From: a virus
Strand: one strand, 5' to 3'
IMG/VR virus record: IMGVR_UViG_3300046513_000201
Coordinates: 1 to 60,552 of that record
Length of the DNA stretch: 60,552 nucleotides
In this document: in pieces, positions 9,308 to 41,697 of the stretch
Layout: each line of letters starts with the position of its first letter
Numbering within the stretch: position 1 is the first letter of the stretch
Translations under genes and position numbers: made by a program
Notes under the pieces: model-generated
Seen by the model: the letters and a program-made list of their open reading frames with translations, nothing else
What the model was told of the DNA's origin: nothing
The model's database searches: none

Positions 9308-9322
9308 TATGCGTGGTGCATA
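9308..9322. promoter_or_regulatory. TATGCGTGGTGCATA palindrome upstream of integrase operon
   Basis: This is one of six members of the TATGCGTGGCGCATA family. CATAGT overlapping its right arm (9317-9322) would serve as a -10 box, as at 41692, although no good -35 box is seen here. It lies 32 bp before the small membrane gene that leads into the integrase. Confidence 0.55.
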
Positions 9323-9353
9323 GTTGCCCTTATTGGGATTTGGAACCACAGAA

Positions 9354-9572
9354 ATGAAGCGATCAACGGTTATCCTTTTAGGTACTTTGGCGGCGTCTCT
9401 TATCGGAACTGCTGTTGCCTCGATCATGTGGCCACCACTTTTCGAGTTCTTCGCAGGGCTCTTAGACACCTCGCCCTTCTACATAAAACTTGGCCTTTGG
9501 CTTGTGCTTTGGGCCGCGATGTATAGCGGCGCACTTAGCGCGGCCGCCAACCAATCCACCGTCGATAAATGA
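9354..9572 (+). CDS. Small membrane protein upstream of integrase
   Basis: This 72-aa protein has two predicted membrane spans (about residues 5-24 and 45-63) and a short soluble tail. It overlaps the integrase start by four bases, so the integrase is probably made by coupled translation from this message. The role is unknown; superinfection exclusion is one possibility for a small membrane protein next to an integrase, with no direct support. Confidence 0.6.
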   Translation: MKRSTVILLGTLAASLIGTAVASIMWPPLFEFFAGLLDTSPFYIKLGLWLVLWAAMYSGALSAAANQSTVDK

Positions 9573-10732
9573 GCGATAAACCAACAAAGACCGGGACAGC
9601 CGGAACATCATGGAACGACGCGAAGACACCCGGACTTCGCCTCCGATATCTTTCCACCAAATCCGTCTGGTATCTCTACTTCAGAACGAAGACGGGTCGC
9701 CAGAGGAATATGAAGCTTGGCGACGAGCGGGTTCTAACTCTCACTGCCGCAAGAGATCGGGCCAAGACCGTATTAGCGTCCGTGGCAAGAGGTGAGGACC
9801 CCGCCGCCGAATGGTCTGACCTCGCGGCGCGGCCAACAATGGCGATGCTTGCGGAATGGCACTACGAGCGCCACGCAAAGATCAAGAATAAACCGGTGTG
9901 GGCACGGGACATCGAGTCCATGTATCGGATCCACATCGTTCCCCACTTCGGCGAGAAGAAGGCGGTGGCGGACATCACGGAAGCGGATATCAACGCGCTT
10001 CACCACAAGATGCGGGCTCAACCGCACCGCGCGAACCGAGTTTGCGACGTCCTGTCCAAAGGCTTCGAACTCGCCGAGAAATGGCAGTGGCGGCCCCGCA
10101 ACACCAATCCGGTCCATATCGAGCGGTTCAAAGAGAAGAAGAGGAACCGGCAACCCACCGCCGAGGAGTCCGCGCGGATGCTTATCGCCTTGGATAAGGC
10201 GCGCAAAGATGAGCCGTGGTTTGTTGGCCTTGTCGAGCTTTTGCTTTTCACCGGAGCCCGCTTAAACGAGGTCATGGCCGCAAAATGGGAATGGGTGCAT
10301 GATGACGGCCTACACCTTCCGGATTCCAAAACGGGCGAAAAGATAGTGCCGCTGTCCGCCCTCGCGCGTGATGTGCTGGACGAGATCCCGGTTGTTAAAG
10401 GCAACCCCTACATCATCGTCGGCCACATCAAAGGTAAGCATATGGTCAACGTGACGAAGCCGTGGGCCAGACTGATGAAGGAAGCGAAGATCACGGAACG
10501 CTTGGTCCGCCATGACCTCCGCCGCTTCTTCGCATCTGCTGGCCTCTCCGGTGGCGGTGTATCCCTATCGCAGGTCGGTGAGCTTCTAGGCCATATGGAT
10601 ACGAGGACAACGAAGCGTTACGCCAGCCTGTTGACGAACACGGCGCAAGAGGCGGCGGACGCCACGGCGATAGCGGTGAAGGCAATTATGACCGGCGGTG
10701 GCAAGGTGACGGCCCTTCGCAACAAACGATAA
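9569..10732 (+). CDS. int: Tyrosine site-specific integrase
   Basis: This 387-aa protein has the full lambda-integrase plan. The N-terminal domain (about 15-80) resembles the DUF4102 arm-binding type (PGLRLRY, LGDERVLTLTAARDRAKTVL), and a core-binding domain spans about 95-190. The catalytic domain carries Arg231 (TGARLNE), Lys254, His315-x-x-Arg318 (RHDLRR), His342 (LLGHMDT) and the nucleophile Tyr351. It should recombine the tRNA-derived attP at about 7770-7817 with the host tRNA. That site is 1.8 kb upstream, separated by the clamp gene, whereas most attP sites lie directly beside int. Confidence 0.9.
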   Translation: MSDKPTKTGTAGTSWNDAKTPGLRLRYLSTKSVWYLYFRTKTGRQRNMKLGDERVLTLTAARDRAKTVLASVARGEDPAAEWSDLAARPTMAMLAEWHYERHAKIKNKPVWARDIESMYRIHIVPHFGEKKAVADITEADINALHHKMRAQPHRANRVCDVLSKGFELAEKWQWRPRNTNPVHIERFKEKKRNRQPTAEESARMLIALDKARKDEPWFVGLVELLLFTGARLNEVMAAKWEWVHDDGLHLPDSKTGEKIVPLSALARDVLDEIPVVKGNPYIIVGHIKGKHMVNVTKPWARLMKEAKITERLVRHDLRRFFASAGLSGGGVSLSQVGELLGHMDTRTTKRYASLLTNTAQEAADATAIAVKAIMTGGGKVTALRNKR

Positions 10733-10761
10733 TTGCACGGGAAATATGCGTGGCGTATATA
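10733..10761 (+). promoter_or_regulatory. Promoter with TATGCGTGGCGTATA operator for HTH gene
   Basis: TTGCAC (10733-10738), a 17-bp spacer and TATATA (10756-10761) form a good promoter. The palindromic motif TATGCGTGGCGTATA (10745-10759) fills the spacer and overlaps the -10 box. The downstream gene encodes an HTH protein, which suggests autoregulation. Confidence 0.7.
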
Positions 10762-10782
10762 TGGCTTCGAAGGGAAAACGCT

Positions 10783-11028
10783 ATGCCAGTCACAGACGCC
10801 AAGAACCAACGCGAGTTTTCATTGCTGTTCGATAGGAGCGAGTTGCAGCAAACGAAGCTAGCCCGGCTTCTTGGAGTCTCGGTCATGACCGTGAACCGCT
10901 GGCTTTCGGACCGCGACGACGCCGTGGATCCGCCGTGGTACGCCCTCACCTTTCTCCGAGTGTTCTTGATGCTTCCGGAACCGGCCCGCGCCAGGATTCC
11001 GGAAAAGCCAAAGAAGGTGGTAAGGTAA
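10783..11028 (+). CDS. XRE-like helix-turn-helix regulator
   Basis: This 81-aa protein has a single helix-turn-helix (LQQTKLARLLGVSVMTVNRW) followed by a basic tail ending KPKKVVR. AAGGG at 10770-10774 is well spaced to the ATG at 10783. Its promoter contains a TATGCGTGGCGCATA-type palindrome also found at other operons, so it is the leading candidate for the regulator of that motif. A host factor could equally bind it. The bidirectional terminator at 11229-11249 lies beyond it. Confidence 0.75.
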   Translation: MPVTDAKNQREFSLLFDRSELQQTKLARLLGVSVMTVNRWLSDRDDAVDPPWYALTFLRVFLMLPEPARARIPEKPKKVVR

Positions 11029-11055
11029 TTGAGCCTATAGGGTGTTTCTGTTATT

Positions 11056-11241
11056 GTGTATGCAACCCGTTGGCCCGCACCTCAGTTGCTCGACCCGGAC
11101 GCACGAACGTCAGGGGATGACTGTAAAGGTCCGCGCACGATAACCAGTAGATCGCTGTGCAACGAGTGTTCGAGGACGGCAAGCACCCCAATTAAGGGAA
11201 CGATGCTTAGGAAATGCCCCGCAAAAAGAAACCCGGCTTGA
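11056..11241 (+). CDS. Possible small cysteine-containing protein
   Basis: A GTG-started open frame of 61 codons fills the gap between the HTH gene and the terminator. It contains CNEC and further single cysteines that could form a zinc site, but it has no convincing ribosome site and runs into the terminator stem. I treat it as doubtful; otherwise the 220-bp gap holds nothing I recognise. Confidence 0.2.
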   Translation: MYATRWPAPQLLDPDARTSGDDCKGPRTITSRSLCNECSRTASTPIKGTMLRKCPAKRNPA

Positions 11242-11252
11242 CCGGGTTTTTT
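11229..11252. terminator. Bidirectional rho-independent terminator
   Basis: An 8-bp stem, AAACCCGG-CTTGA-CCGGGTTT, is followed by T residues to the right and preceded by an A-rich tract to the left. It can end both the rightward HTH transcript and the leftward late operon, whose last gene ends at 11251. Confidence 0.8.
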
Positions 11253-11451
11253 AGTGCCTGACCACGATGTGCCGCTTCCGGGATCTGGCGGGGATCGCGA
11301 CTCGGTTCTTGTCTTCAAGGAAGTCACTCACGGCCTTTGAGAGGCCATGACTCGCGCGCTCCTGTTTGGCGGCGGCCTCATCGACCCGACGACTAACTTC
11401 GTCTTCCCTGATGCGGTTCTGTGAGAATATAGCCCTCAAAAGGTGCATCAT
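11251..11451 (-). CDS. Hypothetical small protein at end of late operon
   Basis: This 66-aa basic protein (RREDEV-type charged helix, C-terminus rich in Arg and His) is coupled to the upstream membrane protein by an ATGA overlap. Its stop lies in the terminator region. No family was recognised; position suggests a lysis accessory. Confidence 0.5.
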   Translation of the reverse strand: MMHLLRAIFSQNRIREDEVSRRVDEAAAKQERASHGLSKAVSDFLEDKNRVAIPARSRKRHIVVRH

Positions 11452-11663
11452 GTGCGTTCCTTTATCAGTTCCTTGAGCGCTTCGATTGCTGATGTGTTGC
11501 GCTCCATAGCAACCGCTATTCTCGCCCCATCATCGGCCCGCGCTTCAATGGCGGTCGTGTATTTTACGAACAGTGCGCGGACCGCGTAAAGCAGCACTGC
11601 AATAACAATGCCTGGCAAGCCATAAAGTTCAATTAATTTTCCGGCCGCCTGTGTCCAGTCCAT
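11448..11663 (-). CDS. Holin-like small membrane protein (candidate)
   Basis: This 71-aa protein has one strong membrane span (LPGIVIAVLLYAVRALFV, about residues 16-33) followed by a charged amphipathic tail. The start at 11663 (MDWTQ) is preferred; an upstream in-frame start would add 14 residues. It sits directly after the endolysin and spanin genes, the usual place for a holin. Holin families are too diverse to assign by eye, so this rests on size, topology and position. Confidence 0.5.
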   Translation of the reverse strand: MDWTQAAGKLIELYGLPGIVIAVLLYAVRALFVKYTTAIEARADDGARIAVAMERNTSAIEALKELIKERT

Positions 11664-11932
11664 GGCTTTCGCTTCGAATATTCCCGGCGAAGCTTGTTGT
11701 ACCAAGCCCGCGCGTTCGCGTTCATCCTATTGGCTCTTGCCGTTTCCGACATTGATACCGCTAACGCCGCCCTGGCGTCACTTCCGCTTTGTGGAATCCA
11801 GACGGTTACACCGCTAAATTGTGAGGGCCATGGCGGCAAATCGACGCCGGGGACATCACCGGATGGCGCGCAACCGCTTGATATCATCATCAGTAAGGTC
11901 GCAACTGCCATTCTTCTTGAGGCCGCGCGCAT
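11633..11932 (-). CDS. Outer-membrane spanin (Rz1-like lipoprotein)
   Basis: This 99-aa protein has a basic N-terminus, a hydrophobic stretch MAVATLLMMISSGC with a lipobox ending in Cys, and a proline-containing mature part (VPGVDLPPWPSQ). AGAAGGTGG is well placed before the ATG at 11932. The gene starts inside the i-spanin gene in another frame and runs past its end, the overlapping Rz/Rz1 arrangement. The lipoprotein should pair with the i-spanin to disrupt the outer membrane at lysis. Confidence 0.8.
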   Translation of the reverse strand: MRAASRRMAVATLLMMISSGCAPSGDVPGVDLPPWPSQFSGVTVWIPQSGSDARAALAVSMSETARANRMNANARAWYNKLRREYSKRKPWTGHRRPEN

Positions 11933-12197
11933 ACGATTCCACCTTCTTTTGCAGTTCGGCGGCGAGCTTGTCCGATTCGGAGGCAAGCCGTTCCGCGTCT
12001 TCGTTGGACTTCTCGGCGATGGCGAGGTCGCGCAATGCGGCGTCCCGTTCCGTTTTGTATTGTTCGGCGCGGCACCCTGTAGCGGCGGCACGATATCCGG
12101 CGGTGTAGACACCGGCGCACACCACGAAGCCAACCACGGCGGCCGTGACGAGGCGAGCCGCCGGGTTTCCGGCAAGAGCGAGCGCCGCGCCAATCAT
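11856..12197 (-). CDS. Inner-membrane spanin (Rz-like)
   Basis: This 113-aa protein starts at the ATG overlapping the endolysin stop (ATGA). It has one N-terminal membrane span (LVTAAVVGFVVCAGVYTAGY, about residues 14-33) and a long periplasmic coiled-coil region (YKTERDAALRDLAIAEKSNE onward). This matches Rz-type i-spanins. The o-spanin gene begins within its C-terminal coding region. Confidence 0.8.
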   Translation of the reverse strand: MIGAALALAGNPAARLVTAAVVGFVVCAGVYTAGYRAAATGCRAEQYKTERDAALRDLAIAEKSNEDAERLASESDKLAAELQKKVESYARGLKKNGSCDLTDDDIKRLRAIR

Positions 12198-13384
12198 ACG
12201 ATGCGCCCGGACTGATACCCTGCGAGCCTGGCGGCTTTGATGCGGCGGGCGTAGTAGAACAGAGCGAGCCCGGCACCGGCGGCGAGGATCCACCAATTGT
12301 CGGCGATGAGTGCGGTGACGGACGCCAGCGGTTCGGAGAGCGCGGAAAGTGCGGTAGACGCTTCCGTAACCTTGTCCAGAAGCCCGGCCTTTTCGGCGAC
12401 ACCAACGGCGGCGAGGCCCGTGGTAAGGATGCCGACACCTTGCGTCTTGTCCGCCTCCTTGATGATGCTGGACCCCTTTTCGCGGAGGTCCGCGACGGTG
12501 GCGTTGGCGCGGGCTTCCGGAATTTGCGAAACAGCAACGTCAAGCGCACGCTGAGTCGCTGGACCGACGACTCCATCGATATCCGGCAAGCTCACACTTG
12601 CCTGAAATGCCTTCACCGCGTTCCGCGTGGTCGGCCCAAAATCCTTGTCGATCGCTACGGGAAAGCCGATTTCGTTGAGGCGCTTTTGCAGTTCTTCGAC
12701 CCGGTAGCCAGTGGAGCCGAGACGAAGCCCGGACTCCCTCACCACACTTTCAATCTTCGGTTCCTTCCCGGCAAATGTCCGGTACTCCACGCGCATCCGG
12801 TTCGCGTAGACACCGTTCTGTCCGCCGCCGTTATAGACCCGCTCGATAGCATCGAAGTCGCGGGCGCGAAGTTCGTCCGCCAGTCCGTTGCCGACAAGGA
12901 AACCCATCATCGCCTCGACGTGGCTGTCTTCGGTCTCGCACATATCGAGCACGAAGGATTGCACCGAAGGCCAGCCGCAAAGGCTGTAGTTTTCGCCCAT
13001 GACCTGGCCCGCTCCGTAAGACGCGGATTTCAGTGCGGCGGTTTCGTCAATGGCAATGGCCCGGACAAGGAAGTCGAGCGCGGCCGCATTGTTTGGTTGA
13101 TCTTTGTATCCGCCCTTCTTCGCGGAAATCCATGTCGCACGGGCGAGTCCAGCCTTGACGGCACCGGACCGCTTCTCCGGCGGAAGGTTCTTGTAAAACT
13201 TGTGCTTCTCGAAAAGGACCTTTACCCGGCCCTCTTTATCGATGCCGGAGCCGTTGGACTCCACTTGCACGATGGCTTGCACCGTGGCCGCCTCGCATTT
13301 CAGCTTCGCCGCAACAGCTTTTAGGCCGTCCGGGCTTCTCTTGTTGACGCCGGAAGAAAGTAGGATTTCAGCAATATTGGACAT
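12194..13384 (-). CDS. Endolysin: muramidase plus peptidoglycan-binding domain
   Basis: This 396-aa protein has an N-terminal N-acetylmuramidase domain (DUF3380 type; QAIVQVESNGSG near residue 40, then VLFEKHKFY and SYGAGQVMGENY). A PG_binding_1 repeat follows (about 225-285; YRVEELQKRLNEIGFPV, DFGPTTRNAVKAF, DGVVGPATQRAL). Near the C-terminus lies a hydrophobic span (WWILAAGAGLALFYYARRI). The C-terminal membrane anchor is unusual and may tether the enzyme until the holin acts. The start at 13384 is preferred over the GTG at 13393 because GGAG is better spaced. Confidence 0.85.
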   Translation of the reverse strand: MSNIAEILLSSGVNKRSPDGLKAVAAKLKCEAATVQAIVQVESNGSGIDKEGRVKVLFEKHKFYKNLPPEKRSGAVKAGLARATWISAKKGGYKDQPNNAAALDFLVRAIAIDETAALKSASYGAGQVMGENYSLCGWPSVQSFVLDMCETEDSHVEAMMGFLVGNGLADELRARDFDAIERVYNGGGQNGVYANRMRVEYRTFAGKEPKIESVVRESGLRLGSTGYRVEELQKRLNEIGFPVAIDKDFGPTTRNAVKAFQASVSLPDIDGVVGPATQRALDVAVSQIPEARANATVADLREKGSSIIKEADKTQGVGILTTGLAAVGVAEKAGLLDKVTEASTALSALSEPLASVTALIADNWWILAAGAGLALFYYARRIKAARLAGYQSGRIV

Positions 13385-19806: not shown

Positions 19807-21297
19807 TTAATATCGAATGCAGGCGAGAAGCGCGATGTTGCGAGGCCGAGTCTCCGATCCTCCGGTGAGGGATGTGGTGATGTCACCGCCTTCACTTGGA
19901 CCATTTTGGACGAAAGCGCCGCCGCCAGTCTGACCCTTCCCGACAGTGTGGGAGTGGCTCTTGAATGCGTCCGTTTGAGCGGACCCGAAGACGCGGCCGG
20001 TATCGATGCCACGCCCATCATCCCACCCACGGATAAACTCGCCGCGAAGGTTCGGGACGTTGAACGTAGAGGAACCGTTGCCAGCGCCGAACGAGGTCCC
20101 GATGACTTCGAAGAGCCGGGAATAGGTGACGCGCGAAACCGCTGCACCGTTTGCCTTGAGGTATCCGGTCGGCGCGGTGTTGCGGGCAAAATACTTCACT
20201 TCGCCAACATCTGGATTAAGGTCAATCTTCGCTGCAAGCGAGGCGGTGACGGCAACAGCCGTCGCGAAGAGCGCGTTTGCCTCTTCCTTCGTGTAGTAGT
20301 CCACGGCGTCCAGTGCCTTGACCGCCCACACAAACCATGCCTGCCCTTCAACGGGCGAAAGAACTGTGATGTTCGGTGAAGCAAGCGTGTAATCCGTGGC
20401 GAGCTTTTTCAGCGCGCCGTTGATAAACACCATGACAGAAGTGAATCCGCCGCCGACCGTGATGACGCCTGAGGGTGACGGTCCGAAGGTTCCGGACTCG
20501 AACCGCAAGCCGCCGATAGACGCGGTGATAGCTGGCGCGAAGGTGGAGCCGTCATAGACACGCAGAATTGATCCATCGTACCAAACCATACCGTCAACCG
20601 GATCGGCTGGCGGGGTAGGACCTGGCGGCGCGATGATGTCGAAAACGTCCGCGCGGGCCGCCTGTGCCTCGTTCTTCGCCGTGGTTGCGGCGGCCGCCGA
20701 AGAGGCCGCCGAGTTCGAAGAGTTTTGCGCCGCCGTCTTCGCTAGTTCGGCCGCTTCCCGCTCCACCTTGGTATCGTCAAGGATTTGCGATTGCGCCAGG
20801 ACTTGACCGGCAACCGCCGCAATAATCCAATCGGAATGCGGACCCGGATCGCCGGAAACATAATCAACATCGATATCGATGACCCCGGACACCCGGTCGA
20901 AATAGACGACGCGGCCTACGCCGAAGTCGAAGGCGTCATTTTCGCGCGTGATCGCAACGAAGGGTGACGGCGTGAACAAGTCACGTTGATCGCCTTCGTC
21001 CATCACGAACGAAATAACGGTGTCCGCCGCAAGCGTCCGTGTCACCGATGCAGGGACCGTGAGAAATCCTAACTCGGCGATACGGCTGATGCGTTCCGCC
21101 GCCGGGCCAAGGACCTCATTGATCCGGTCAAGGGCAACACCAAGGCCCTGTTGCGAAACCTCTTCCCATGAAATCTTGATCGTTTCGAGTTCACGGAAAC
21201 GAACCGCGACGTCGCCGATAAATCCATTCCAGAACGCCGGGTTAACGATGGTGTCATTGGTGGCGTAGTATTGTTCTTGAAGCGTTTTCAGCGCCAT
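19807..21297 (-). CDS. Tail fibre with C-terminal collar domain
   Basis: This 496-aa protein has a structural N-terminus, an alanine-rich helical linker (about 180-225, SSNSAASSAAAATTAKNEAQ), a repeat-like beta region and a C-terminal phage tail-collar domain. The last includes GEVKYFARNTAPTGYLKANG, FNVPNLRGEFIRGWDDGRGI and the closing TRPRNIALLACIRY. Such proteins are receptor-binding fibres. It lies in the tail operon after gpI, the P2 gene H position. A second, larger fibre is encoded at 48418-51519. Confidence 0.8.
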   Translation of the reverse strand: MALKTLQEQYYATNDTIVNPAFWNGFIGDVAVRFRELETIKISWEEVSQQGLGVALDRINEVLGPAAERISRIAELGFLTVPASVTRTLAADTVISFVMDEGDQRDLFTPSPFVAITRENDAFDFGVGRVVYFDRVSGVIDIDVDYVSGDPGPHSDWIIAAVAGQVLAQSQILDDTKVEREAAELAKTAAQNSSNSAASSAAAATTAKNEAQAARADVFDIIAPPGPTPPADPVDGMVWYDGSILRVYDGSTFAPAITASIGGLRFESGTFGPSPSGVITVGGGFTSVMVFINGALKKLATDYTLASPNITVLSPVEGQAWFVWAVKALDAVDYYTKEEANALFATAVAVTASLAAKIDLNPDVGEVKYFARNTAPTGYLKANGAAVSRVTYSRLFEVIGTSFGAGNGSSTFNVPNLRGEFIRGWDDGRGIDTGRVFGSAQTDAFKSHSHTVGKGQTGGGAFVQNGPSEGGDITTSLTGGSETRPRNIALLACIRY

Positions 21298-32805: not shown

Positions 32806-34818
32806 TCAATCCATGAAAGGACTCGCGATGACGCGGCCCCGCTTCCGTTTCTTTGTCTTTATCGCACCCGCGTTTTTAGGTGTCATTACGGTTTCCGGTG
32901 GAAGCCGGACTTCCTCCGCTACATCCTCAACCTTCACAGCCTCTTCCCGCTTCGGTTCGGTATCGCCCATTTCGGCCCGCCTTTCCGTTAGTGCCCGCTC
33001 GATACTGGCGGCGCGTTTGTTCAAGTGGACCCCGCCGATAACCAGTCCCTGCAATGCGGCGTAGGCGTAGACCCTGCAGTCGAACGCTTCGTTTCGAGCG
33101 TGGTCCGGCTTGTGCCATTCGATGACGCGAAAACCCTTCACGTACCGCGTCACCTTCCGCTCAACCGTCAACTGTTCGAAATACTCTTTGTCCCGATCCA
33201 ACGGGAAATGGCATGCGCCAGGACCGGAGACGCTTGGCCCCGTCTTTGTCAATCGAGCGGTAACAGTCTCTTTCGCGGCATCGACGCCGATGGCATAAAG
33301 GTTGATCTTGCCTTTATTGGTCCGACTCGGACGCTTCGGCCACACCGGACGCTTTCCAGCGTATCCCTTGATCCCCCATATCCGGCGGCCTTCGCGCGGC
33401 CGAACAAATCGGTACGCGTCTTGCGTGTTCGCACCGCCGGTATCGATGCACGTCGCCGAAATCTTCATGCCGCCAGGCACCGCCGGATGCGCGAACCGCT
33501 TCTTTGTTAGGTCGTCCAATTGGTCCCACACTTCAAGTTCGGATGGGTCGCCGACGAGGACGTGATACTCCACGGACCACGACTCTTCGTCCCGGCCCCA
33601 TGCAACAACTTCAGCTTCCAAGCGATCCGGCTGGACGTCGACGCCCATGGTTAGAAGCGCGGCGCGGTCCGGCAACGGTTCCGCGCTGAAATCCTCACGC
33701 TTCCCGAACAAGGTGTCGGGATCCAGCTTGTCCCCGCCTAAGTCTTCCCACTCCTGGCCTAGAATGTTGTTTATGAACGGCTGCAGAAGTGCGGGGTCGT
33801 CCTTCGCCTTCAAGAAGCGTTGCGCGCATTCCGCCCATGTGTACCAAGGCGAGTACAGCGCGGAGAGGTGATAGCTCCTGATGTTCGGGTTCGACGGCTC
33901 CGCCGTGGCAACCCAACAAGCCCCGTTCTCTTCGGCGAGGATGAAACCTTTCCGGTGTTCGGCGTGGCGGTGTTCGCAAAGCTCGCCGGTTACCTCATCA
34001 TGCCCGGCACAAACAAACGCGGCGGTCTCCGGCTTCCCTTCCTCCCACTTGATCCGGTCCCACGTGATGGGCTGCAGGAAACCGCACTTGTCACACTTCA
34101 CGTTGTAGTATCGTTGATCCCCTTCGCGGAACGCGGGACCAATACGACTCGAACCCTTCAAGAGCGGCGTCGAAAGCTTGAAGATTTTCCGCCGGGTGAA
34201 TGTGGATGTTCGGTCCGTCGCCAGGGTAACGGGGTCGCCGTCATCATCGGCCGACGCCGGGTAACCGTCGACTTCGTCCAGCACGAGGCAACGCATCGGG
34301 AGACCGCGCAAGCCGGAGCCCGAATTCGCGCCGGTCAACACAAGGATGCCGCCGTCGAATCCCTTCTCGAAAATCGTGTTATCGGAATCCCTGGACCTCG
34401 CCGGAGCGATGCGCTCCGATAGCGCCGGGCTCGCCTCAATCATGGGATCAATGCGAGTCTTCGAAAACTTCTTCATCAAGTCCAGAGTCGGCAACACATA
34501 CATCATCGGACCCGGCGAATGATGGATTGTGTAGCCGACGAAATTGAACCCGGCTTCGGACATCCCGATTTGAACGCCCTTCATCACGTTCACGACTTGC
34601 ACCGCCGAGTAAGCGGAGAGGCAGTCCATGATTTCGCGAAGGTATGGGGTCCTTGATGTCCGCCAGCGTCCGGGCTCCGCCGACGACTTCGTGGAAAGAA
34701 CGCGGTTCTTGTCTGCCCATTCCGATACGGTGTAGGGAGGATCCGGAAGAAGGGCGTCCGCGCCATCAAGATAGAGAAGCGCCGCCTTGTTAAGCGTTAT
34801 CGGCGCATGAGCATTCAT
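32806..34818 (-). CDS. terL: Terminase large subunit (lambda gpA family)
   Basis: This 670-aa protein is a lambda-A-type terminase. It has an N-terminal ATPase with VVNVMKGVQIGMSEAGFN (about 75-92), RCLVLDEVDGYPAS as Walker B (about 176-189), and KIFKLSTPLLKGSSRIGPAF. A C-terminal nuclease domain includes LLTMGVDVQPDRLEAEVVAW and ISATCIDTGGANTQD. Its size suits gpA (641 aa). Lambda A-type enzymes cut at cos sites, so packaging from a cos near the small subunit is likely, though none can be proven here. Confidence 0.9.
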   Translation of the reverse strand: MNAHAPITLNKAALLYLDGADALLPDPPYTVSEWADKNRVLSTKSSAEPGRWRTSRTPYLREIMDCLSAYSAVQVVNVMKGVQIGMSEAGFNFVGYTIHHSPGPMMYVLPTLDLMKKFSKTRIDPMIEASPALSERIAPARSRDSDNTIFEKGFDGGILVLTGANSGSGLRGLPMRCLVLDEVDGYPASADDDGDPVTLATDRTSTFTRRKIFKLSTPLLKGSSRIGPAFREGDQRYYNVKCDKCGFLQPITWDRIKWEEGKPETAAFVCAGHDEVTGELCEHRHAEHRKGFILAEENGACWVATAEPSNPNIRSYHLSALYSPWYTWAECAQRFLKAKDDPALLQPFINNILGQEWEDLGGDKLDPDTLFGKREDFSAEPLPDRAALLTMGVDVQPDRLEAEVVAWGRDEESWSVEYHVLVGDPSELEVWDQLDDLTKKRFAHPAVPGGMKISATCIDTGGANTQDAYRFVRPREGRRIWGIKGYAGKRPVWPKRPSRTNKGKINLYAIGVDAAKETVTARLTKTGPSVSGPGACHFPLDRDKEYFEQLTVERKVTRYVKGFRVIEWHKPDHARNEAFDCRVYAYAALQGLVIGGVHLNKRAASIERALTERRAEMGDTEPKREEAVKVEDVAEEVRLPPETVMTPKNAGAIKTKKRKRGRVIASPFMD

Positions 34819-35393
34819 TCGGATTCCGACTCATCCTGTACGTTGATATCGAACGGAGCCGGGGTCGTTGCTATCTCTATCAGCGCTTCCCTGATCTTTG
34901 CTTCCAATGCACCAACGAACGCGGCGGCCGGAACGCCGAATTCAGCGGCAATAGCGGCCCCGTACCGGTTCGCGAAGTTGAGCATGCCGTCGCGATAGGT
35001 CCGCATCAGCGCGCGGGTCGCTAGTCTCGCGTCGTCCGACTTGATAACGGACCCCTCAAGAATGGAGAGTTGAATCGTTTCCTTCCGGAGTGCGATTTCT
35101 TCGCGCTCCATCTTCACCTTGAATTCGCCGCGCGACTCCTCCGCCGACTTCGCGGTGCCGCGACCATCGCGTGGTGCCGGTTCGATGTCCTTGGTACGGG
35201 CGCGGACCCGGTTCGGATTCATGTTGGCGAACCAGAGAACCCGCGCCTTCTCTTCGTCTAGCGACCCGTCATCAAGAACGGCATCGGCAAGCGATCCACG
35301 CTTAATCCGGTCCGCCACCGCCTTATGCGTTACGCCAAGGGATTTAGCGAAGGCGTTTACCGCGATGCCTTGGCGCTGATGACGTGGCGACAA
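34815..35393 (-). CDS. terS: Terminase small subunit (Nu1-like), TTG start
   Basis: This 192-aa protein begins at a TTG (35393) preceded by AGAAGGATC with good spacing; no ATG lies upstream. The N-terminus holds a helix-turn-helix (IAVNAFAKSLGVTHKAVADR), as in Nu1, and the middle is a charged coiled coil (FKVKMEREEIALRKETIQLS). The C-terminus EALIEIATTPAPFDINVQ matches the large-subunit interaction region of this group. The stop overlaps the large-subunit start (ATGA). It is the first gene of the late operon. Confidence 0.85.
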   Translation of the reverse strand: MSPRHQRQGIAVNAFAKSLGVTHKAVADRIKRGSLADAVLDDGSLDEEKARVLWFANMNPNRVRARTKDIEPAPRDGRGTAKSAEESRGEFKVKMEREEIALRKETIQLSILEGSVIKSDDARLATRALMRTYRDGMLNFANRYGAAIAAEFGVPAAAFVGALEAKIREALIEIATTPAPFDINVQDESESE

Positions 35394-35409: not shown

Positions 35410-35424
35410 TATACATGGTGCATA
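35410..35424. promoter_or_regulatory. Degenerate TATGCGTGGCGCATA-type site near late promoter
   Basis: TATACATGGTGCATA matches the palindrome family at 12 of 15 positions. It lies at the expected late transcription start, between the late -10 box and the small terminase gene. Confidence 0.4.
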
Positions 35425-35430
35425 TTTTGC

Positions 35431-35458
35431 ATTATACCGATGTTTGCAAATTGCAAAC
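35431..35458 (-). promoter_or_regulatory. Leftward late promoter with operator
   Basis: On the minus strand a perfect TATAAT (complement of 35431-35436) lies about 40 bp before the small terminase start. No good TTGACA is present at -35; instead the perfect palindrome at 35442-35458 occupies the spacer and -35 zone. The layout suits direct repression in the lysogen and possibly activator help during the lytic cycle. Confidence 0.6.
35442..35458. promoter_or_regulatory. Perfect palindromic operator at late control region
   Basis: GTTTGCAAATTGCAAAC has perfect 8-bp arms around a single A and is the cleanest member of the operator family. It lies between the divergent late operon and the rightward gene at 35490, so it could control both. 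Confidence 0.7.
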
Positions 35459-36329: not shown

Positions 36330-36556
36330 GACCGGGCCGCGCTAAAACCGAATCCCTGCAACGGGAATGCGATGCCTTCAATCTGGCGAACGCTGTGGGT
36401 GCGCGGGTCCGCGTCAAGATGGACAACGGCACCACTACCATCACGAACACCCGGAGCACGGCGCAAGTCCTGTCCGGTCATTCAGCCGTCATCTGGCTTG
36501 ACGGGATCTCCGGTTGCTACTTGTTGGACCGGGTGACGCCGATGGGTGATGCATGA
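36326..36556 (+). CDS. Hypothetical small protein
   Basis: This 76-aa protein overlaps the DUF3489 stop by four bases. It has a basic N-terminus and beta-type core (VGARVRVKMDNGTTTITNTR, SAVIWLDGISGCYLLDRV), which could be a small SH3- or OB-like fold. No family was recognised. Confidence 0.6.
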   Translation: MRPGRAKTESLQRECDAFNLANAVGARVRVKMDNGTTTITNTRSTAQVLSGHSAVIWLDGISGCYLLDRVTPMGDA

Positions 36557-36690
36557 CGGATATCACCGATAGACTCCGCGCCGCCTTGCTCGGCTGGCCC
36601 TTCGGCCTTCACCGCGTCCTCTATGACGCCATCCACGAAATCGAGCGTTTGCGCAAAGAGCGGGACGCCGCGAAGGGCGGTGACGCTTGA
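36553..36690 (+). CDS. Hypothetical small protein
   Basis: This 45-codon frame (MTDITDRLRAALLGWPFGLH onward) overlaps both neighbours by four bases (ATGA and TTGA) and ends in the same GGDA-type tail as nearby genes. Coupled overlaps on both sides support translation. It is helical and has no known function. Confidence 0.55.
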   Translation: MTDITDRLRAALLGWPFGLHRVLYDAIHEIERLRKERDAAKGGDA

Positions 36691-36908
36691 CCCCTAAGAC
36701 AGTTCCAGAAGACATGGTGAAATCTGCCGCTGCCGTAATCGATGCCCGCTCCTTCGAAATGTTTTCAGGCGACAAACTCGAAATGACCGGGCTGATTATC
36801 GCCGCGCTTCTGGCGGAGCGGGAGCGGTGCGCCCGCATCGTTGAACGCGGACTTGGCCGGACGAACACCGCGATTGCCCGCGCGATCCGGGAAGGCGGTG
36901 ACGCATGA
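36687..36908 (+). CDS. Hypothetical small protein, TTG start
   Basis: This 73-aa protein starts at a TTG that overlaps the upstream stop (TTGA). It is helical, with LIIAALLAERERCARIVERG typical of small Ead/Ea22-like phage proteins. It overlaps the next gene by four bases. Confidence 0.55.
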   Translation: MTPKTVPEDMVKSAAAVIDARSFEMFSGDKLEMTGLIIAALLAERERCARIVERGLGRTNTAIARAIREGGDA

Positions 36909-37234
36909 GCGCCGCCGTTTATGTCATCCTGAAACGCGGCTACTACTACCGGCCACACGCGCGAGGCTATACCGGTATTCTTGAGGAAGCCGGTCGGTTC
37001 ACCGAAGCCGTCGCCATGGCGGAGCGGGACAACGAACCCGGTGCCGTCTCCTATCATCATCAGGACGTCGCGCCAGATTTCAGCGAAGGGTGTGACGCCT
37101 ACACCGCCGCCGAGTATACGAGGGTGAAGCTCGCCGCCGCAAACGCCGCCCTGGCGCTCTTAGCTAAATCGCATCAGACGGAAGTCGCAGTGTTGCGTGA
37201 ACGTCTGGCGATGGTGCAAGGCGGTGCGGCATGA
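36905..37234 (+). CDS. Hypothetical phage protein
   Basis: This 109-aa protein contains VYVILKRGYYYRPHARGYTG and YTAAEYTRVKLAAANAALAL, a pattern I recall from small phage accessory proteins with no assigned role. It is coupled to both neighbours. Confidence 0.6.
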   Translation: MSAAVYVILKRGYYYRPHARGYTGILEEAGRFTEAVAMAERDNEPGAVSYHHQDVAPDFSEGCDAYTAAEYTRVKLAAANAALALLAKSHQTEVAVLRERLAMVQGGAA

Positions 37235-37563
37235 CGCGGGAACCACCTATCAAATGTTGCCCGAATTGTTTCGCGGTCCAGTACGCCGTAATAAAGGTGT
37301 GCGAAGCGTGCGGCTCCCCGCTCGGCGACCCACTCAAAGCGTGGGACCGTCACGACAACAAGCGCCGGAGCATCATGGTCGACGGCACCATGTTCGTTGC
37401 GTACCGCCCGGACCGGTCCAGCTTGTGGGCGATCAAGGACGCGTCCACCTTGAAGGACATAGCCGCCGGACTCACGACGAGGGATGTCACCGCTTACTTC
37501 CGCCGGAAAGCGGACAAGGAAGAAGCCGCCGCGTTCGCCTCATGGAAAGGCGGTGCGTCTTGA
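37231..37563 (+). CDS. Zinc-ribbon small protein
   Basis: This 110-aa protein has a zinc ribbon at the N-terminus (CCPNCFAVQYAVIKVCEACG, residues about 9-28) and a beta/alpha remainder (YRPDRSSLWAIKDASTLKDI). Such ribbons bind nucleic acid or protein. Function unknown; it overlaps both neighbours. Confidence 0.6.
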   Translation: MTREPPIKCCPNCFAVQYAVIKVCEACGSPLGDPLKAWDRHDNKRRSIMVDGTMFVAYRPDRSSLWAIKDASTLKDIAAGLTTRDVTAYFRRKADKEEAAAFASWKGGAS

Positions 37564-37646
37564 TCGTTCAAGCCATCTTGTGGGCTATACTCATCTTCTG
37601 TTTCGGATGGTGTATCGCCACCGTAGTTTGCACAGGTAGCCGCTAG
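37560..37646 (+). CDS. 28-aa membrane peptide, TTG start
   Basis: The 28-codon frame MIVQAILWAILIFCFGWCIA ending CTGSR begins at a TTG overlapping the upstream stop. It is almost entirely one hydrophobic span. It is the last gene before a terminator. Small size makes it uncertain. Confidence 0.4.
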   Translation: MIVQAILWAILIFCFGWCIATVVCTGSR

Positions 37647-37674
37647 GCGAATTCATAAATCGTTGCAATGACAT

Positions 37675-37702
37675 AGCCCGGAGTTAATCCGGGCTTTTCT
37701 TT
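37675..37702 (+). terminator. Rho-independent terminator
   Basis: An 8-bp perfect stem AGCCCGGA-GTTAA-TCCGGGCT is followed by TTTCTTTG. It ends the rightward operon that starts at 35490. Confidence 0.8.
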
Positions 37703-37734
37703 GTCATCATCATTCGGAATGGTTATGAATTTGA

Positions 37735-37749
37735 TATGCGTGGCGCGTA
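37735..37749. promoter_or_regulatory. TATGCGTGGCGCGTA motif at edge of AT-rich island
   Basis: This is a member of the TATGCGTGGCGCATA family with one changed arm base. TTATGA about 11 bp upstream and CGTAAC overlapping the right arm would be weak promoter boxes. It faces the AT-rich segment 37750-37980. Confidence 0.45.
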
Positions 37750-37756
37750 ACATCAT

Positions 37757-37969
37757 ATGCTTTATGAATATTCTATCGCTAGCGAAAGCCTGCGCTGCCA
37801 AGTCCCCCGCACCATGGCACTCACGTGGAAGGACCCAAAATCTTTGTTTTATATAATTATTTCAATATGTTACATACATGCAACGTGTCTTATACACCAA
37901 ACACAACTAGTGATGTATCATTCTGATTTCGCATCAACTCGATTTGAATACATAACCATTCTTATATGA
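37757..37969 (+). CDS. Doubtful reading frame in AT-rich segment
   Basis: A 70-codon frame follows the motif at 37735. Its composition is AT-rich and unlike the rest of the phage, with an IIISICYIHATCLIH hydrophobic patch. There is no ribosome site. It may be a recently acquired small gene or no gene at all. Nothing else is recognisable between 37703 and 37976. Confidence 0.2.
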   Translation: MLYEYSIASESLRCQVPRTMALTWKDPKSLFYIIISICYIHATCLIHQTQLVMYHSDFASTRFEYITILI

Positions 37970-37976
37970 ATGACAC

Positions 37977-38010
37977 AAAGAAAAGGCCGGAATCCATGAT
38001 GGCCCCGGCC
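37977..38010 (-). terminator. Rho-independent terminator, leftward
   Basis: On the minus strand GGCCGG, a 14-base loop and CCGGCC are followed by TTTTCTTT. It ends the leftward pair of genes 38037-39055. Confidence 0.65.
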
Positions 38011-38036
38011 CTGATGTCTGCGATCAATTGATGTTG

Positions 38037-38669
38037 TTATCGTTGAGACTTAGGCTTGAACTTACCTTCGCCATTGCGCTTCGTTGATGCAGCCTTCTTT
38101 GTTGATGCGTACCGGGTAAGCTGGCGCAACACGTTGGCTTGCAACCGTTCCACTCCATAGGCTTCATTGGCCCCGGACACCGCGTCCTTCGCCATCGCTT
38201 CGGCTATGGCTGCACCCTTGGCCCTTTTTATAGGGAGACGGGAGGGACCAAGACGGGTGAAGACGTGACCGCCCATACCAAGCTCTTTGTTATGGGCACC
38301 TAGCGCGCCGCCATAGATGAAGGCCCCAGGATGGTGGATCCTACGCCCCCATAGCGTTGCGGAGACACCGTCGCCTTCCTCACGTGCCTTGAACGCTTTG
38401 AGTGGGATGATGGAGCCGGAACCCCGGACAACCGCCGTAAGTGTTGACGGAGTCGAATACGGACGCACCCATATCCCCATCTTAGACCGTTTCGCCGGGA
38501 TAGACAGGGATTTCGCTACAAGCTGTTCCGCTTTACGCTCTACCTGGCGAGCGGAGTCATTGACTGCAACGCTCATCGCCTGATGCAATTTAGGCCCTGA
38601 CAGCTTTCGCATCAGAGCCTTTGCTTCGGCCCAATCCCAATTGGCCTTGATGGTGATTCCATCAGCCAT
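38037..38669 (-). CDS. Minor tail protein Z-like (GPZ family)
   Basis: This 210-aa protein has the pattern of the prophage minor tail protein Z family: VNDSARQVERKAEQLVAKSL, IIPLKAFKAREEGDGVSATL and GHVFTRLGPSRLPIKRAKG. In lambda, Z helps finish the tail. Here the gene lies 2.6 kb outside the late operon, next to an AT-rich island and with its own terminator, so it may be an acquired or displaced structural gene. Confidence 0.75.
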   Translation of the reverse strand: MADGITIKANWDWAEAKALMRKLSGPKLHQAMSVAVNDSARQVERKAEQLVAKSLSIPAKRSKMGIWVRPYSTPSTLTAVVRGSGSIIPLKAFKAREEGDGVSATLWGRRIHHPGAFIYGGALGAHNKELGMGGHVFTRLGPSRLPIKRAKGAAIAEAMAKDAVSGANEAYGVERLQANVLRQLTRYASTKKAASTKRNGEGKFKPKSQR

Positions 38670-38671
38670 AT

Positions 38672-39055
38672 TTATTCGCCGGGGTTGGCGGCCTTGTTGA
38701 TATCGGCTTTGATCGCGGCGATGATATCAGCCTTCTTCCCCGCGGGATTAATGGTAATCACCTTCGACACCGCGAAGTCGACAAGCTGATCCTTCGTCAT
38801 CGCATCGAGGTCCGGTGTTTGGACGACATCGGTTCCGGTAGTCGTTGTGTCAAATTCGGGGAAACCCGCTTTCGCCAACACCTGATCTAGCGCGGATTCG
38901 ATATCCGGAGCAACATACGGAGTAGCTGCCCCGGCTCTACGGAGGCGGCCGAAGGTTTCGGCATCGATTTCAATTGCGCCACCAGACTTCGCGAAAAACT
39001 CGTTTTCGCCATTCGCATTCATGACGTTCATGTTGCGGGTGATGATGGCTTTCAT
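38672..39055 (-). CDS. Hypothetical protein with SAP-like C-terminal motif
   Basis: This 127-aa protein starts at the ATG at 39055 with AAGGA upstream. The C-terminal 45 residues (DAMTKDQLVDFAVSKVITIN, GKKADIIAAIKADI) resemble a SAP/Rho-N DNA-binding helix pair. The N-terminus, KAIITRNMNVMNANGENEFF, resembles short head-completion or FI-type proteins that carry the same C-terminal motif. It is probably cotranscribed with the GPZ-like gene three bases downstream. Confidence 0.6.
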   Translation of the reverse strand: MKAIITRNMNVMNANGENEFFAKSGGAIEIDAETFGRLRRAGAATPYVAPDIESALDQVLAKAGFPEFDTTTTGTDVVQTPDLDAMTKDQLVDFAVSKVITINPAGKKADIIAAIKADINKAANPGE

Positions 39056-39110
39056 GGTCACGAATCCTTGCGAGGTTAAAAAACGTCAATTTCGGGAATT
39101 GGACCACGGC

Positions 39111-39127
39111 ATTTGCAAAACGTAAAC
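39111..39127. promoter_or_regulatory. Operator site at left edge of iteron island
   Basis: ATTTGCAAAACGTAAAC is a near match to the operator family. It lies 56 bp upstream of the leftward gene at 39055 and directly beside the first iteron. A weaker related site lies at 39074-39090. Confidence 0.55.
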
Positions 39128-39129
39128 CC

Positions 39130-39186
39130 TGTATTTTTTTCGAGCATGTATTTTTTCATTCTGAAAAAAATACACCCAAAAATACA
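39130..39186. repeat. Iteron cluster 1 (TGTATTTTTT x4)
   Basis: Copies lie at 39130-39139 and 39147-39156 (direct) and at 39165-39174 and about 39178-39187 (inverted). With cluster 2 they flank about 185 bp of mostly AT-rich DNA, including an AT-only stretch near 39200-39250. Confidence 0.65.
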
Positions 39187-39372
39187 CATTAACCAATTGT
39201 TATTATTCATTTCTATTTTTCTATGAAAATAAATAAATAAATATACATATACGCCTATGCACCTGTGTGTGCTCCCGCGTCTACGTCTGGATGTGTGTGC
39301 AGGCATTTGTATGTATGTTTTCGCGCTGAAAAGCATAGAAAAATAGAATACAATGAAATCAATAAGTTAAGT
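39187..39372. other. AT-rich spacer between iteron clusters (origin candidate)
   Basis: The first half is strongly AT-rich (39188-39250, including tandem AAAT units) and would melt easily. The second half has GT-rich stretches (TGTGTGTG type). No gene with a convincing ribosome site is present on either strand. The layout of iterons around an AT-rich tract resembles theta origins. An initiator protein of known type was not recognised elsewhere. Confidence 0.45.
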
Positions 39373-39419
39373 TGTATTTTCCGTGTATTTTTTCATGTAT
39401 TTTCTGCGATGTATTTTTT
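39373..39419. repeat. Iteron cluster 2 (TGTATTTTTT x4)
   Basis: Four direct copies lie at 39373-39382, 39384-39393, 39396-39405 and 39410-39419, with two of them ending TTTTCC and TTTTCT. They are 11-14 bp apart. The cluster abuts the promoter at 39434. Confidence 0.65.
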
Positions 39420-39424
39420 GGAGT

Positions 39425-39462
39425 GTTGACGAATTGACAATCTGTTATGCGTGGCGCATATG
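39425..39462 (+). promoter_or_regulatory. Promoter with double operator (39495 operon)
   Basis: TTGACA (39434-39439), a 17-bp spacer and CATATG (39457-39462) form the promoter. GTTGACGAATTGACAAT (39425-39441), a relative of the 17-bp operator, covers the -35 box. The perfect palindrome TATGCGTGGCGCATA (39446-39460) fills the spacer. Nearly the same arrangement recurs at 41660-41697. Confidence 0.7.
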
Positions 39463-39494
39463 TGGGGGATAGGTGGATGAAGAGGGTTCCCCCG

Positions 39495-39743
39495 ATGAAT
39501 TCGGACCAAATGAAGGCACTCACCGCCGCTTCGACCGGATATGAGAAGGCGAGGCGCAGGCTCAGGAAGATGGTCGCCGAAATCTTCCCAATTGATTCCG
39601 CCGTTATCTTCACCCGTCACGGGGCCAGGCTGTCCGGAACGGTCTACGCTTATTCGGAAGTTGATTCCGATCTCCTTGTGAACGGGACGGGTTCCCGCTT
39701 CATCGTCTCCCCTCTTGATGCCATGAAAGTAGGTGCGAAATGA
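39495..39743 (+). CDS. Hypothetical small protein
   Basis: This 82-aa protein starts at the ATG at 39495, served by AGAGGG; the ATG at 39477 would leave almost no leader. It has a helical N-terminus (KALTAASTGYEKARRRLRKM) and a beta C-terminal half (VIFTRHGARLSGTVYAYSEV) that could be a small barrel. No family was recognised. It overlaps the next gene by four bases. Confidence 0.6.
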   Translation: MNSDQMKALTAASTGYEKARRRLRKMVAEIFPIDSAVIFTRHGARLSGTVYAYSEVDSDLLVNGTGSRFIVSPLDAMKVGAK

Positions 39744-39859
39744 GCGCCGCTCTTCTCCTCACCATCGCCGCCACACCTGTAGGGCTCGCCGCTTTAACCC
39801 TCTTCGCCGCCCTCGCGCTTGGCTGGAGTCCTTCATGGCTGTCATGGCCGGACCTTTAG
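39740..39859 (+). CDS. 39-aa membrane peptide
   Basis: The frame MSAALLLTIAATPVGLAALT onward is one long hydrophobic span ending WPDL. It overlaps both neighbours. It may be a tiny membrane protein; size limits certainty. Confidence 0.45.
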   Translation: MSAALLLTIAATPVGLAALTLFAALALGWSPSWLSWPDL

Positions 39860-40005
39860 AGCCGAGTGCTCGCCAGCGCATCGAACGGGTCGCCATTGCC
39901 TTCTACTACCGCCGCGGCCGCAAATTGATTGTGCGACCAGGATACACGGAACGGCTCCGGGCCATCGGCTGCAACATGCACTTGTTTAAGATCAAGGATC
40001 AATAG
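39835..40005 (+). CDS. Hypothetical small basic protein
   Basis: This 56-aa protein starts within the end of the membrane peptide gene (ATG at 39835 or 39844). It is basic and helical (ARQRIERVAIAFYYRRGRKL). No family was recognised. Confidence 0.45.
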   Translation: MAVMAGPLEPSARQRIERVAIAFYYRRGRKLIVRPGYTERLRAIGCNMHLFKIKDQ

Positions 40006-40007
40006 AA

Positions 40008-41051
40008 ATGGAAACACACAACGCAAAGGGTGTCCCGTTCAATGGACGTGACGCGATGCGGACCGGATGGGACACCAAGGCGAACCCGTGGCCCAAGGAC
40101 TCCTGGGAGCGGATGCGCTGGCTCGCGGAATGGTGGTTTGAAAACGCGGACTGTTTCAAGAGCCATATCGAAGCCGCCGCTTTTCAGCCCATCCGACTCG
40201 ATGTGCCCGCCTCGCTCCATCCCGACGCACCGGTTTCCAGCGTCTTCCCTCGATTTCTCTTCGCGGGCACCCATGCGGTTGCCACCTTCATAATGGAAGA
40301 CGGCCAACCTGGCCCGGTCGCATGTTTGACCGGGGATGACCATCAGGAACGGGGCCGCGCCATTGTTCGATCCGTGATGTCCGCCGGTCTCACCATGACA
40401 GCGGCGTCGAAGCTTGTCGCCAGGCTGGCGGAGCTTGAAGACGAGAACCGCGCTTTGAAGGCGTCGGCTCCAACCCCCGCACCTGCGGACCATGTAAATT
40501 TGTATGGATGGCGCAACAAGTGGCACCCGCAGTACGCCAGTTTGGCACACGCTATCTCAGCCGCCAGCCAAGATCTGATCGTTTCCGCTGACCTTGTCCG
40601 CAACAAGACTGTCGGAAAACGACTTCAGGAACATGCGGATCTTCTCGGTCGTATCGCCTCCGATTTGATTGGTAACACCAACCCCGCGCCCTCAGATCAT
40701 GTGCGGGGGATATCTGACGAAGACCGAAACTATCTTGAAGAAGTGGCTGACGGTGCTTGGGGCGATGACCCGCGCACCCGTGGCCTTGCTCGCGATCGAT
40801 TGAAATCCCTCGATACGGAAACAGATGCGCCGCGCCTGACAAGCGGCGAACGCTTCTTGCTCGAATGGCTTGCAAAAGAAGACAGCAGCGCGTTGGGCGA
40901 ATGCGAAGGTGCGGACCTCGCTCACCTCGAGCAGATGGCGCTGGTGGTCATCCAGCCGGTCGAGGGCAAGCACCGGCACTATTCGCGGGTCAGCGTGACA
41001 GAACCCGGGTTAGCCGCCCTCGCAGCGTCGGAGGGCGGACGAGATGAGTGA
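40008..41051 (+). CDS. Hypothetical accessory protein
   Basis: This 347-aa protein appears modular. An N-terminal segment (about 1-110, WFENADCFKSHIEAAAFQPI) is followed by a short coiled coil (SKLVARLAELEDENRALKAS), a repeated ADHVNLYGWR/SDHVRGISDE-type linker, and a C-terminal region resembling small winged helices (TSGERFLLEWLAKEDSSALG, YSRVSVTEPGLAALAASEGG). Modular accessory proteins of this kind vary between related phages. Function unknown. Confidence 0.6.
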   Translation: METHNAKGVPFNGRDAMRTGWDTKANPWPKDSWERMRWLAEWWFENADCFKSHIEAAAFQPIRLDVPASLHPDAPVSSVFPRFLFAGTHAVATFIMEDGQPGPVACLTGDDHQERGRAIVRSVMSAGLTMTAASKLVARLAELEDENRALKASAPTPAPADHVNLYGWRNKWHPQYASLAHAISAASQDLIVSADLVRNKTVGKRLQEHADLLGRIASDLIGNTNPAPSDHVRGISDEDRNYLEEVADGAWGDDPRTRGLARDRLKSLDTETDAPRLTSGERFLLEWLAKEDSSALGECEGADLAHLEQMALVVIQPVEGKHRHYSRVSVTEPGLAALAASEGGRDE

Positions 41052-41472
41052 CCGCGTTTACACCGAAGGCTTTCCCGAGCGCTGGTCGATGGTTCACCGC
41101 GATGACTGCACGCTGCTGGTCAGGCGCGGCGACATGGGAATGTTTGTCCTCCCGTCGCAGGCAATCTGCATGGCTCCCAAGCTGATGCAGGGTGAGGCAT
41201 GGCTGGGAACAGCAAAGGAGATTGCCCACGCGATGGCCGGAAGCCGCGAGCGAGAACTCAATCAAATCTTCGATGAGTTTTGCGATAGCTGCGGTATCGG
41301 CCCGCCGCACGATGAGCAAGACCGGGCGGAAGCAAATATTCGATCAGTCCGGACTTGGACATGTGATCGCTGCGACCACGTCAACGAGCGCCCCAAGCAT
41401 CGTGAAAACCCATCGCCCACACCGAGGGTGGAGGGTGACAACATCGAAAAGGAATCTACCAATGGTCAATAG
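41044..41472 (+). CDS. Hypothetical protein with two CxxC pairs
   Basis: This 142-aa protein has CDSCGIGPP near residue 80 and CDRCDHVNE near 105, which could bind zinc. The N-terminal half is beta-rich (YTEGFPERWSMVHRDDCTLL). It overlaps its upstream neighbour by eight bases. No family was recognised. Confidence 0.55.
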   Translation: MSDRVYTEGFPERWSMVHRDDCTLLVRRGDMGMFVLPSQAICMAPKLMQGEAWLGTAKEIAHAMAGSRERELNQIFDEFCDSCGIGPPHDEQDRAEANIRSVRTWTCDRCDHVNERPKHRENPSPTPRVEGDNIEKESTNGQ

Positions 41473-41656
41473 AACCGAAACAAAAGCGTCGGAAATCGCC
41501 GAGATCGAGGCCAAGATTGCCCGCATCGAAACCGCGCAATTCGCGTCTTCGATGAGCAATTCCCGCTACTACACCGATGGAAGCAAGGCTAGGGATGACG
41601 CCGAGATCAGCGCGGCAAAGGATGCCTTGAACGCAATGAAAAAAGATCAAGACTAG
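41462..41656 (+). CDS. Hypothetical small coiled-coil protein
   Basis: This 64-aa protein (ATG at 41462) is charged and helical, with TKASEIAEIEAKIARIETAQ forming a probable coiled coil. It starts inside the end of the previous gene. No family was recognised. Confidence 0.5.
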   Translation: MVNRTETKASEIAEIEAKIARIETAQFASSMSNSRYYTDGSKARDDAEISAAKDALNAMKKDQD

Positions 41657-41659
41657 GGC

Positions 41660-41697
41660 GTTGACGAATTGACAATGCAATATGCGTGACGCATAGT
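41660..41697 (+). promoter_or_regulatory. Promoter with double operator (41734 operon)
   Basis: TTGACA (41669-41674), 17 bp and CATAGT (41692-41697). GTTGACGAATTGACAAT (41660-41676) covers the -35 box and TATGCGTGACGCATA (41681-41695) is a perfect palindrome around TGA in the spacer and -10 box. It is almost a copy of the element at 39425-39462. Confidence 0.7.

Follow-up and report, generated by a model that had tools for sequence, protein, structure and literature searches.

The window, that is, the whole stretch of DNA analyzed here, comprises 60,552 bases of viral sequence (record IMGVR_UViG_3300046513_000201). The ends of the record are identical over 32 bases (positions 1–32 and 60521–60552), which suggests a circular assembly, and the window is consistent with a complete temperate phage, assembled as a circle or with an overlap. 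Its genes include those for a CI-like repressor, recombination, a beta-clamp-like protein, an integrase, packaging, and the virion. The closest cellular relative found was a Neorhizobium xiangyangii (G001) prophage, most of which is syntenic with the window at 66%–78% DNA identity. This prophage is 56 kb in size and is flanked by direct repeats at contig positions 6200 and about 62360, the second of which lies at a tRNA-Thr gene. No near DNA match to positions 36500–47500 of the window was found among phage records. The following genes and blocks are relevant to the analysis:

133 to 750, plus strand: CI-like lysogeny repressor (Pfam HTH_3, 2.8e-8)
9345 to 9572, plus strand: small predicted membrane protein, first in the integrase operon (ORF reading; no PHROG match)
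9569 to 10732, plus strand: tyrosine integrase (Pfam Phage_integrase, 1e-14, and Arm-DNA-bind_3; PHROG 1)
10783 to 11028, plus strand: 81-aa HTH protein, the proposed palindrome regulator (weak HTH_3 and HTH_23 matches)
34815 to 35393, minus strand: terminase small subunit, at the start of the packaging/virion operon (PHROG 57)
37773 to 37813: conserved non-coding block TCGCTAGCGAAAGCCTGCGCTGCCAAGTCCCCCGCACC between two converging operons (five-phage alignment, also visible in G324)
39477 to 41472, plus strand: accessory operon A, small ORFs (no Pfam or PHROG match)
41734 to 44721, plus strand: accessory operon B, which contains a DNA methyltransferase-like gene (PHROG 757)

The accessory operons consist of small variable genes, mostly without a family match, and an anti-defence role for them is plausible. 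A DNA methyltransferase-like gene is present among the accessory genes of the window, G001, and G778. In the window, this gene (42372–43186, operon B) is split between two frames, and the C-terminal part of its G001 homolog is open over 198 aa; a sequencing error, a programmed shift, and decay are equally conceivable reasons for the split. Upstream of accessory operon A, a low-GC stretch (39179–39380) contains an AT-rich 47-bp inverted repeat with 79% complementarity. The non-coding block at 37773–37813 follows the pattern TCGCTAGCGAAAGC..TGCGC.GCC..GTCCCCCGCA, is kept in six phages, and is a possible cos site or regulatory element. An Rfam search of positions 37500–38100 yielded no family at gathering score and a single sub-threshold match.

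A 15-bp palindrome occurs six times in the window, and all copies were located where an earlier note on this DNA had placed them:

9308 to 9322, plus strand: TATGCGTGGTGCATA, integrase operon, left half forming the -10 box
10745 to 10759, plus strand: TATGCGTGGCGTATA, HTH promoter
35410 to 35424, minus strand: TATACATGGTGCATA (as read on the plus strand), directly 3' of the terminase -10 box
37735 to 37749, plus strand: TATGCGTGGCGCGTA, in non-coding DNA 5' of the conserved non-coding block
39446 to 39460, plus strand: TATGCGTGGCGCATA, overlapping the -10 box CATATG (39457–39462)
41681 to 41695, plus strand: TATGCGTGACGCATA, overlapping the -10 box CATAGT (41692–41697)

With up to three mismatches allowed, the palindrome gave 8 strand-matches in the window versus 1.58 in shuffled sequences, and 0 of 100 shuffles scored as high. 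A stricter degenerate pattern matched 5 times versus 0.02 in dinucleotide shuffles. All six copies lie wholly in non-coding DNA, which accounts for 8.3% of the window in the gene model of this analysis. A palindrome profile (23.6 bits) built from 28 family sites found exactly the six window sites above 15 bits and no further strong site; the window sites were included in the profile and their own scores are not independent evidence, its point being the absence of further sites. The earlier note named the integrase operon, the HTH gene, and two accessory operons as lying behind the sites. The 35410 copy had been termed weak, but it is genuine, with the same 15 letters at the terminase promoter of both G001 and G002 (in one of them in the opposite direction on its contig). 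The terminase palindrome occupies the same place in G047, G324, G778, and G789 in related form. A placement like that of the 37735 copy was seen in G001, G002, and G047.

The HTH gene at 10783–11028 is the best candidate for the palindrome regulator because the palindrome stands upstream of every ortholog examined and because its half-sites shift together with a divergent HTH protein. The earlier observation that a palindrome precedes this gene was extended to every ortholog found (window, G001, G002, G047/G774, G775, G778, G324, and G542/G789), where it lies directly upstream over a range of 83% to 33% protein identity; the copy in G324 is imperfect (CACGCGCTGCGCATA). The most divergent ortholog, 33% identical, is that of G789, a record of the G542 phage. 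All four matched palindromes of G789 (4/4) read TATAC..GTATA and not TATGC..GCATA. These sites (TATACGGTACGTATA, TATACGGGACGTATA, TATACGTAATGTATA, and TATACGCTACGTATA) are located 5' of the HTH gene, at the terminase, and at two likely accessory promoters. Such a concerted half-site change at symmetric positions is what would be expected of operator and HTH protein co-evolution, although CI and the other small HTH protein (5110–5349) may differ in this phage as well. The AF2 model of the 81-aa protein (pLDDT 85.8) has a four-helix HTH fold. Among the families listed by VIA-align, it was compared with Aca2 (Z 7.5, rmsd 1.6, 55 positions aligned), Aca1 (Z 7.3, rmsd 2.7, 62 positions aligned), and Aca10 (Z 6.0); these values are not clearly above those of other HTH proteins, for which Z below 8 is common. 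The predicted resemblance to the autoregulating phage repressors Aca2 and Aca1 is suggestive. No match to the protein was found among phage and plasmid records. As to the autoregulated switch proposed earlier, an autoregulated repressor is the simpler reading.

The location of the HTH gene allows a different function to be considered. It lies directly downstream of the integrase in most relatives, and the integrase-operon site of G001 is about 200 bp inside attL, so that the protein could be mainly a recombination directionality factor similar to Apl or Cox, which also represses promoters. We regard this as unlikely: the sites stand at promoters dispersed over about 30 kb, the HTH gene of G542/G789 is not beside an integrase in the stretch read, and attP of the window was not located. 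It is also rather improbable that the palindrome is bound by another phage protein, either the 79-aa HTH protein (5110–5349) or the DUF3489 protein encoded divergently from the terminase, with the 10783 gene being merely a target. The 79-aa HTH gene is conserved in the window, G001, G002, G047, G324, and G778, but it lacks its own palindrome and overlaps with the gene upstream. The DUF3489 gene adjoins the 35410 site, but no homologs of it were found in G002 or G324, where the terminase site nonetheless persists. The 10783 gene is the only one of these whose own promoter carries the palindrome throughout the phages. Because the 79-aa HTH gene is conserved too, the assignment to the 10783 protein rests on promoter adjacency and half-site co-variation.

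Promoters were assigned on the basis of consensus. The palindrome had been described earlier as fixed within TTGNCA-17-YATANN promoters; the spacing is real, but the 10745 promoter reads TTGCAC-17-TATATA (10733–10738 and 10756–10761), the palindrome overlapping its -10 box. Among the 28 family sites, TTGNC is found exactly 12 nt 5' of the palindrome at 11, while every other offset is represented by 5 or fewer. There are three recurring arrangements. In the accessory and HTH promoters, a TTG-type -35 box is located 12 nt before the palindrome, and the right half of the palindrome merges with the -10 box. In the integrase operons of four phages, the -35 box is 23 nt before the palindrome, and the left half forms the -10 box: the window promoter reads TTGACC (9285–9290)-17-TATGCG with the palindrome starting at the -10 box, and G001 (6403), G047 (30553), and G778 (33304) have the same TTGAC/TTGAT-17-TATGC geometry. 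At the terminase, the palindrome follows TATAAT; in the window, this -10 box is on the minus strand at 35431–35436, with the 35410 palindrome directly downstream. No convincing promoter was found at the 37735 palindrome. All three arrangements would put a bound protein over the -10 box or the start region, which is where a repressor would be expected to bind. The fixed spacing to the -35 box at many sites could also point to an activator or alternative-promoter element, with the -10 box supplied by the right half of the palindrome and the operons turned on by the bound factor. This is very improbable, considering that the terminase palindrome is conserved at a place 3' of a separate TATAAT, the palindrome of integrase operons stands 11 nt further from the -35 box, a near-consensus -35 box with 17-bp spacing needs no activator, and no phage sigma factor was present among the genes scanned.

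A second operator accompanies some of the palindromes. The consensus of this CI-type operator, GCGTTGACAAATTGTCAACGC, was built from 48 family sites, and the relevant copies in the window are as follows:

95 to 111: GTTGACATAACGCAAAG, operator of the CI-like gene itself, directly 5' of this gene
35442 to 35458: GTTTGCAAATTGCAAAC, terminase promoter (profile score 28.5)
39425 to 39441, plus strand: GTTGACGAATTGACAAT, containing the -35 box TTGACA (39434–39439)
41660 to 41676, plus strand: GTTGACGAATTGACAAT, containing the -35 box TTGACA (41669–41674)

The CI-type operator and the palindrome are different sequences placed side by side. At seven accessory promoters of four phages (39446 and 41681 in the window; 26975, 28358, and 32192 in G001; 31755 in G002; 17019 in G047), a gap of exactly 4 nt separates the end of the CI-type operator from the palindrome; the profile behind the CI-type scores was partly made from the same operators, while the fixed 4-nt gap is independent of the score. 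At the terminase promoter, the two are separated by 17–18 nt in the window, G001, and G324. A scan with the family profile found no CI-type operator near the integrase, HTH, or 37735-type sites. The palindrome circuit had been thought separate from the CI-like one, which does not hold, since three of the six window sites (35410, 39446, and 41681) adjoin a CI-type operator. The best reading of these sequences is that palindrome control is layered on CI.

The palindrome is not limited to the window. The degenerate pattern matched 7 sites in G001 (versus 0.02 in shuffles), 4 in G002 (0.12), 9 in G047 (0.03), and one in G324 (0.02–0.12 in shuffles across the relatives). The motif appears to mark a dispersed regulon that is conserved across the genomes of about eight temperate phages; record pairs from the same phage were counted once, and several relatives are fragments. 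The strict promoter pattern was found in none of the viral contigs, while a looser one was present in 13, including G778 and two known prophages. The earlier note had suggested searching host genomes for the motif. In the 5-Mb Neorhizobium genome G001, all three exact copies of TATGCGNNNCGCATA are inside one prophage, which argues against a host regulon, and all nine degenerate-pattern matches in G047 (6.1 Mb) are on two contig ends carrying phage homologs. Sequence comparisons thus far support a phage regulon with a sequence distinct from the CI-type operator, and no host regulon.

Exact TATGCGTGNCGCATA was found in 14 of 395 Rhizobiaceae genomes, and several copies are located next to MarR-family genes within stress-gene islands, where two copies often stand about 40 bp from each other. 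Examples of such islands are G248:C4:766957-774093, G338:C13:84593-86519, and G278:C46:57110-64001, with genes for methionine sulfoxide reductase, GAPDH, and transporters as neighbors. No protein is shared between these islands and the window, and no close MarR relative was found in G001, G047, and G324, whose prophages carry the regulon; therefore, a similar operator has been put to use independently in the islands, and finding the motif does not by itself prove this phage regulon. Recognition of the palindrome by a host regulator, for example a MarR-family stress regulator, would tie the prophage to host physiology. This reading is extremely improbable despite the paired copies beside MarR genes of several Rhizobiaceae, and was rejected in view of this MarR absence and the prophage-only location of the exact G001 sites.

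Some viral contigs carry the palindrome in other contexts. Two or more copies were present in G779, G782, and G788, with no HTH homolog detected; all three may be fragments, and G788 appears to be an unrelated phage. Between positions 21211 and 40947 of the G788 contig there are ten copies of T-TATGCGNNNCGCATA-A, several of them 12–31 bp before a start codon. In the stretch read, the palindromes precede unrelated genes and no window homolog was found, and G788 was set aside as an independent use. G776, G777, G780, G781, and G785 have one palindrome each near an unrelated 86-aa HTH gene; they are probably one phage, and the palindrome is possibly due to chance.

In a family of temperate phages of rhizobia, a second small repressor appears to act alongside the lysogeny repressor, through one 15-bp palindrome. 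Support at the sequence level comes from the sites, promoter geometry, conservation, phage restriction, HTH linkage, and half-site co-variation; we infer HTH binding, repression by binding, and timing. The 81-aa HTH protein is quite probably a dimeric autoregulated repressor at the integrase, its own, terminase, and accessory promoters, layered with CI. Its operator would be the palindrome TATGYR-N3-YRCATA, and by occupying the -10 box or the start region it would repress the integrase operon, its own gene, the terminase operon, and the variable accessory operons. The accessory and terminase promoters, having an extra CI-type operator, would be off in the lysogen under both proteins and, after infection or induction, would be active until the HTH protein has built up. 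For the integrase and HTH promoters, control would be through the HTH operator alone. More tentatively, an Aca-like repressor may have turned into a phage-wide second repressor, with the palindrome 4 nt after the CI operator marking dispersed early host-takeover or anti-defence genes that are expressed in a burst on infection and then closed by two independent locks; we consider this scenario possible but doubtful.

If the preferred reading of a second repressor layered on CI is true, a temperate phage can place two repressors on the same dispersed promoters, each with its own operator and with the spacing between the operators fixed, resulting in two-input control of cargo genes. The 15-bp palindrome would be a ready tag for phage early accessory genes, specific enough to list small early genes in rhizobial prophages as candidates for anti-defence or takeover functions. 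The shifted half-site of the divergent phage would be a natural experiment in which a regulator and its scattered operators change together.

In lambdoid phages, Cro and CI act on the same promoters, the small repressor is autoregulated, and the two compete for the same operators. The proposed system is similar in having two phage repressors on the same promoters with the small one autoregulated, but here the two would recognize different adjacent sequences at dispersed promoters, with no operator sharing of the Cro type. The stoperators of mycobacteriophage L5 are dispersed operators of one immunity repressor; many near-identical operators across the prophage genome are common to both systems, whereas here a second regulator would have its own site, a subset of which is common to CI. 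Apl of phage 186 and Cox of P2 are small HTH regulators encoded near the integrase that also act as transcriptional repressors. The window HTH gene likewise encodes a small putative repressor near the integrase, but its operators are palindromes at promoters. Bcep22-like podoviruses have a distant homolog of the CI-like repressor (about 30% identity) and a similar genome size (about 61–63 kb), and relatives of the window repressor are annotated as repressors of these phages; in contrast, no homolog of the palindrome regulator was found in the phage collection. Aca1, Aca2, and Aca10 are small phage HTH proteins with an inverted-repeat operator within the core promoter in an autoregulatory placement (PMC9410906, PMC9410881). 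The window protein is likewise a small HTH protein, and a palindrome overlaps the -10 box of its promoter in an autoregulatory placement; the Aca repressors are among its best fold matches, at Z values not clearly above those of other HTH proteins. Its gene lies directly downstream of the integrase, has its own promoter, and follows no known acr gene. Unlike the Aca repressors, the protein would act at dispersed promoters and not at one operon, and its operators are combined with CI operators; its similarity to Aca1 is not significant (E 0.06, profile versus PDB sequences), and no Aca family was among its NCBIfam matches. In archaeal viruses, a conserved early-gene regulatory sequence is a strong promoter motif (PMC11065993). 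There, as here, early accessory genes at scattered positions have a promoter motif in common, but the window motif looks like a repressor operator. Nothing directly comparable was found in the literature on a second dispersed phage repressor, and operators are not mentioned in the JC1 paper (PMC9144972). The dispersed, doubly operated layout appears to be the new feature of these phages.
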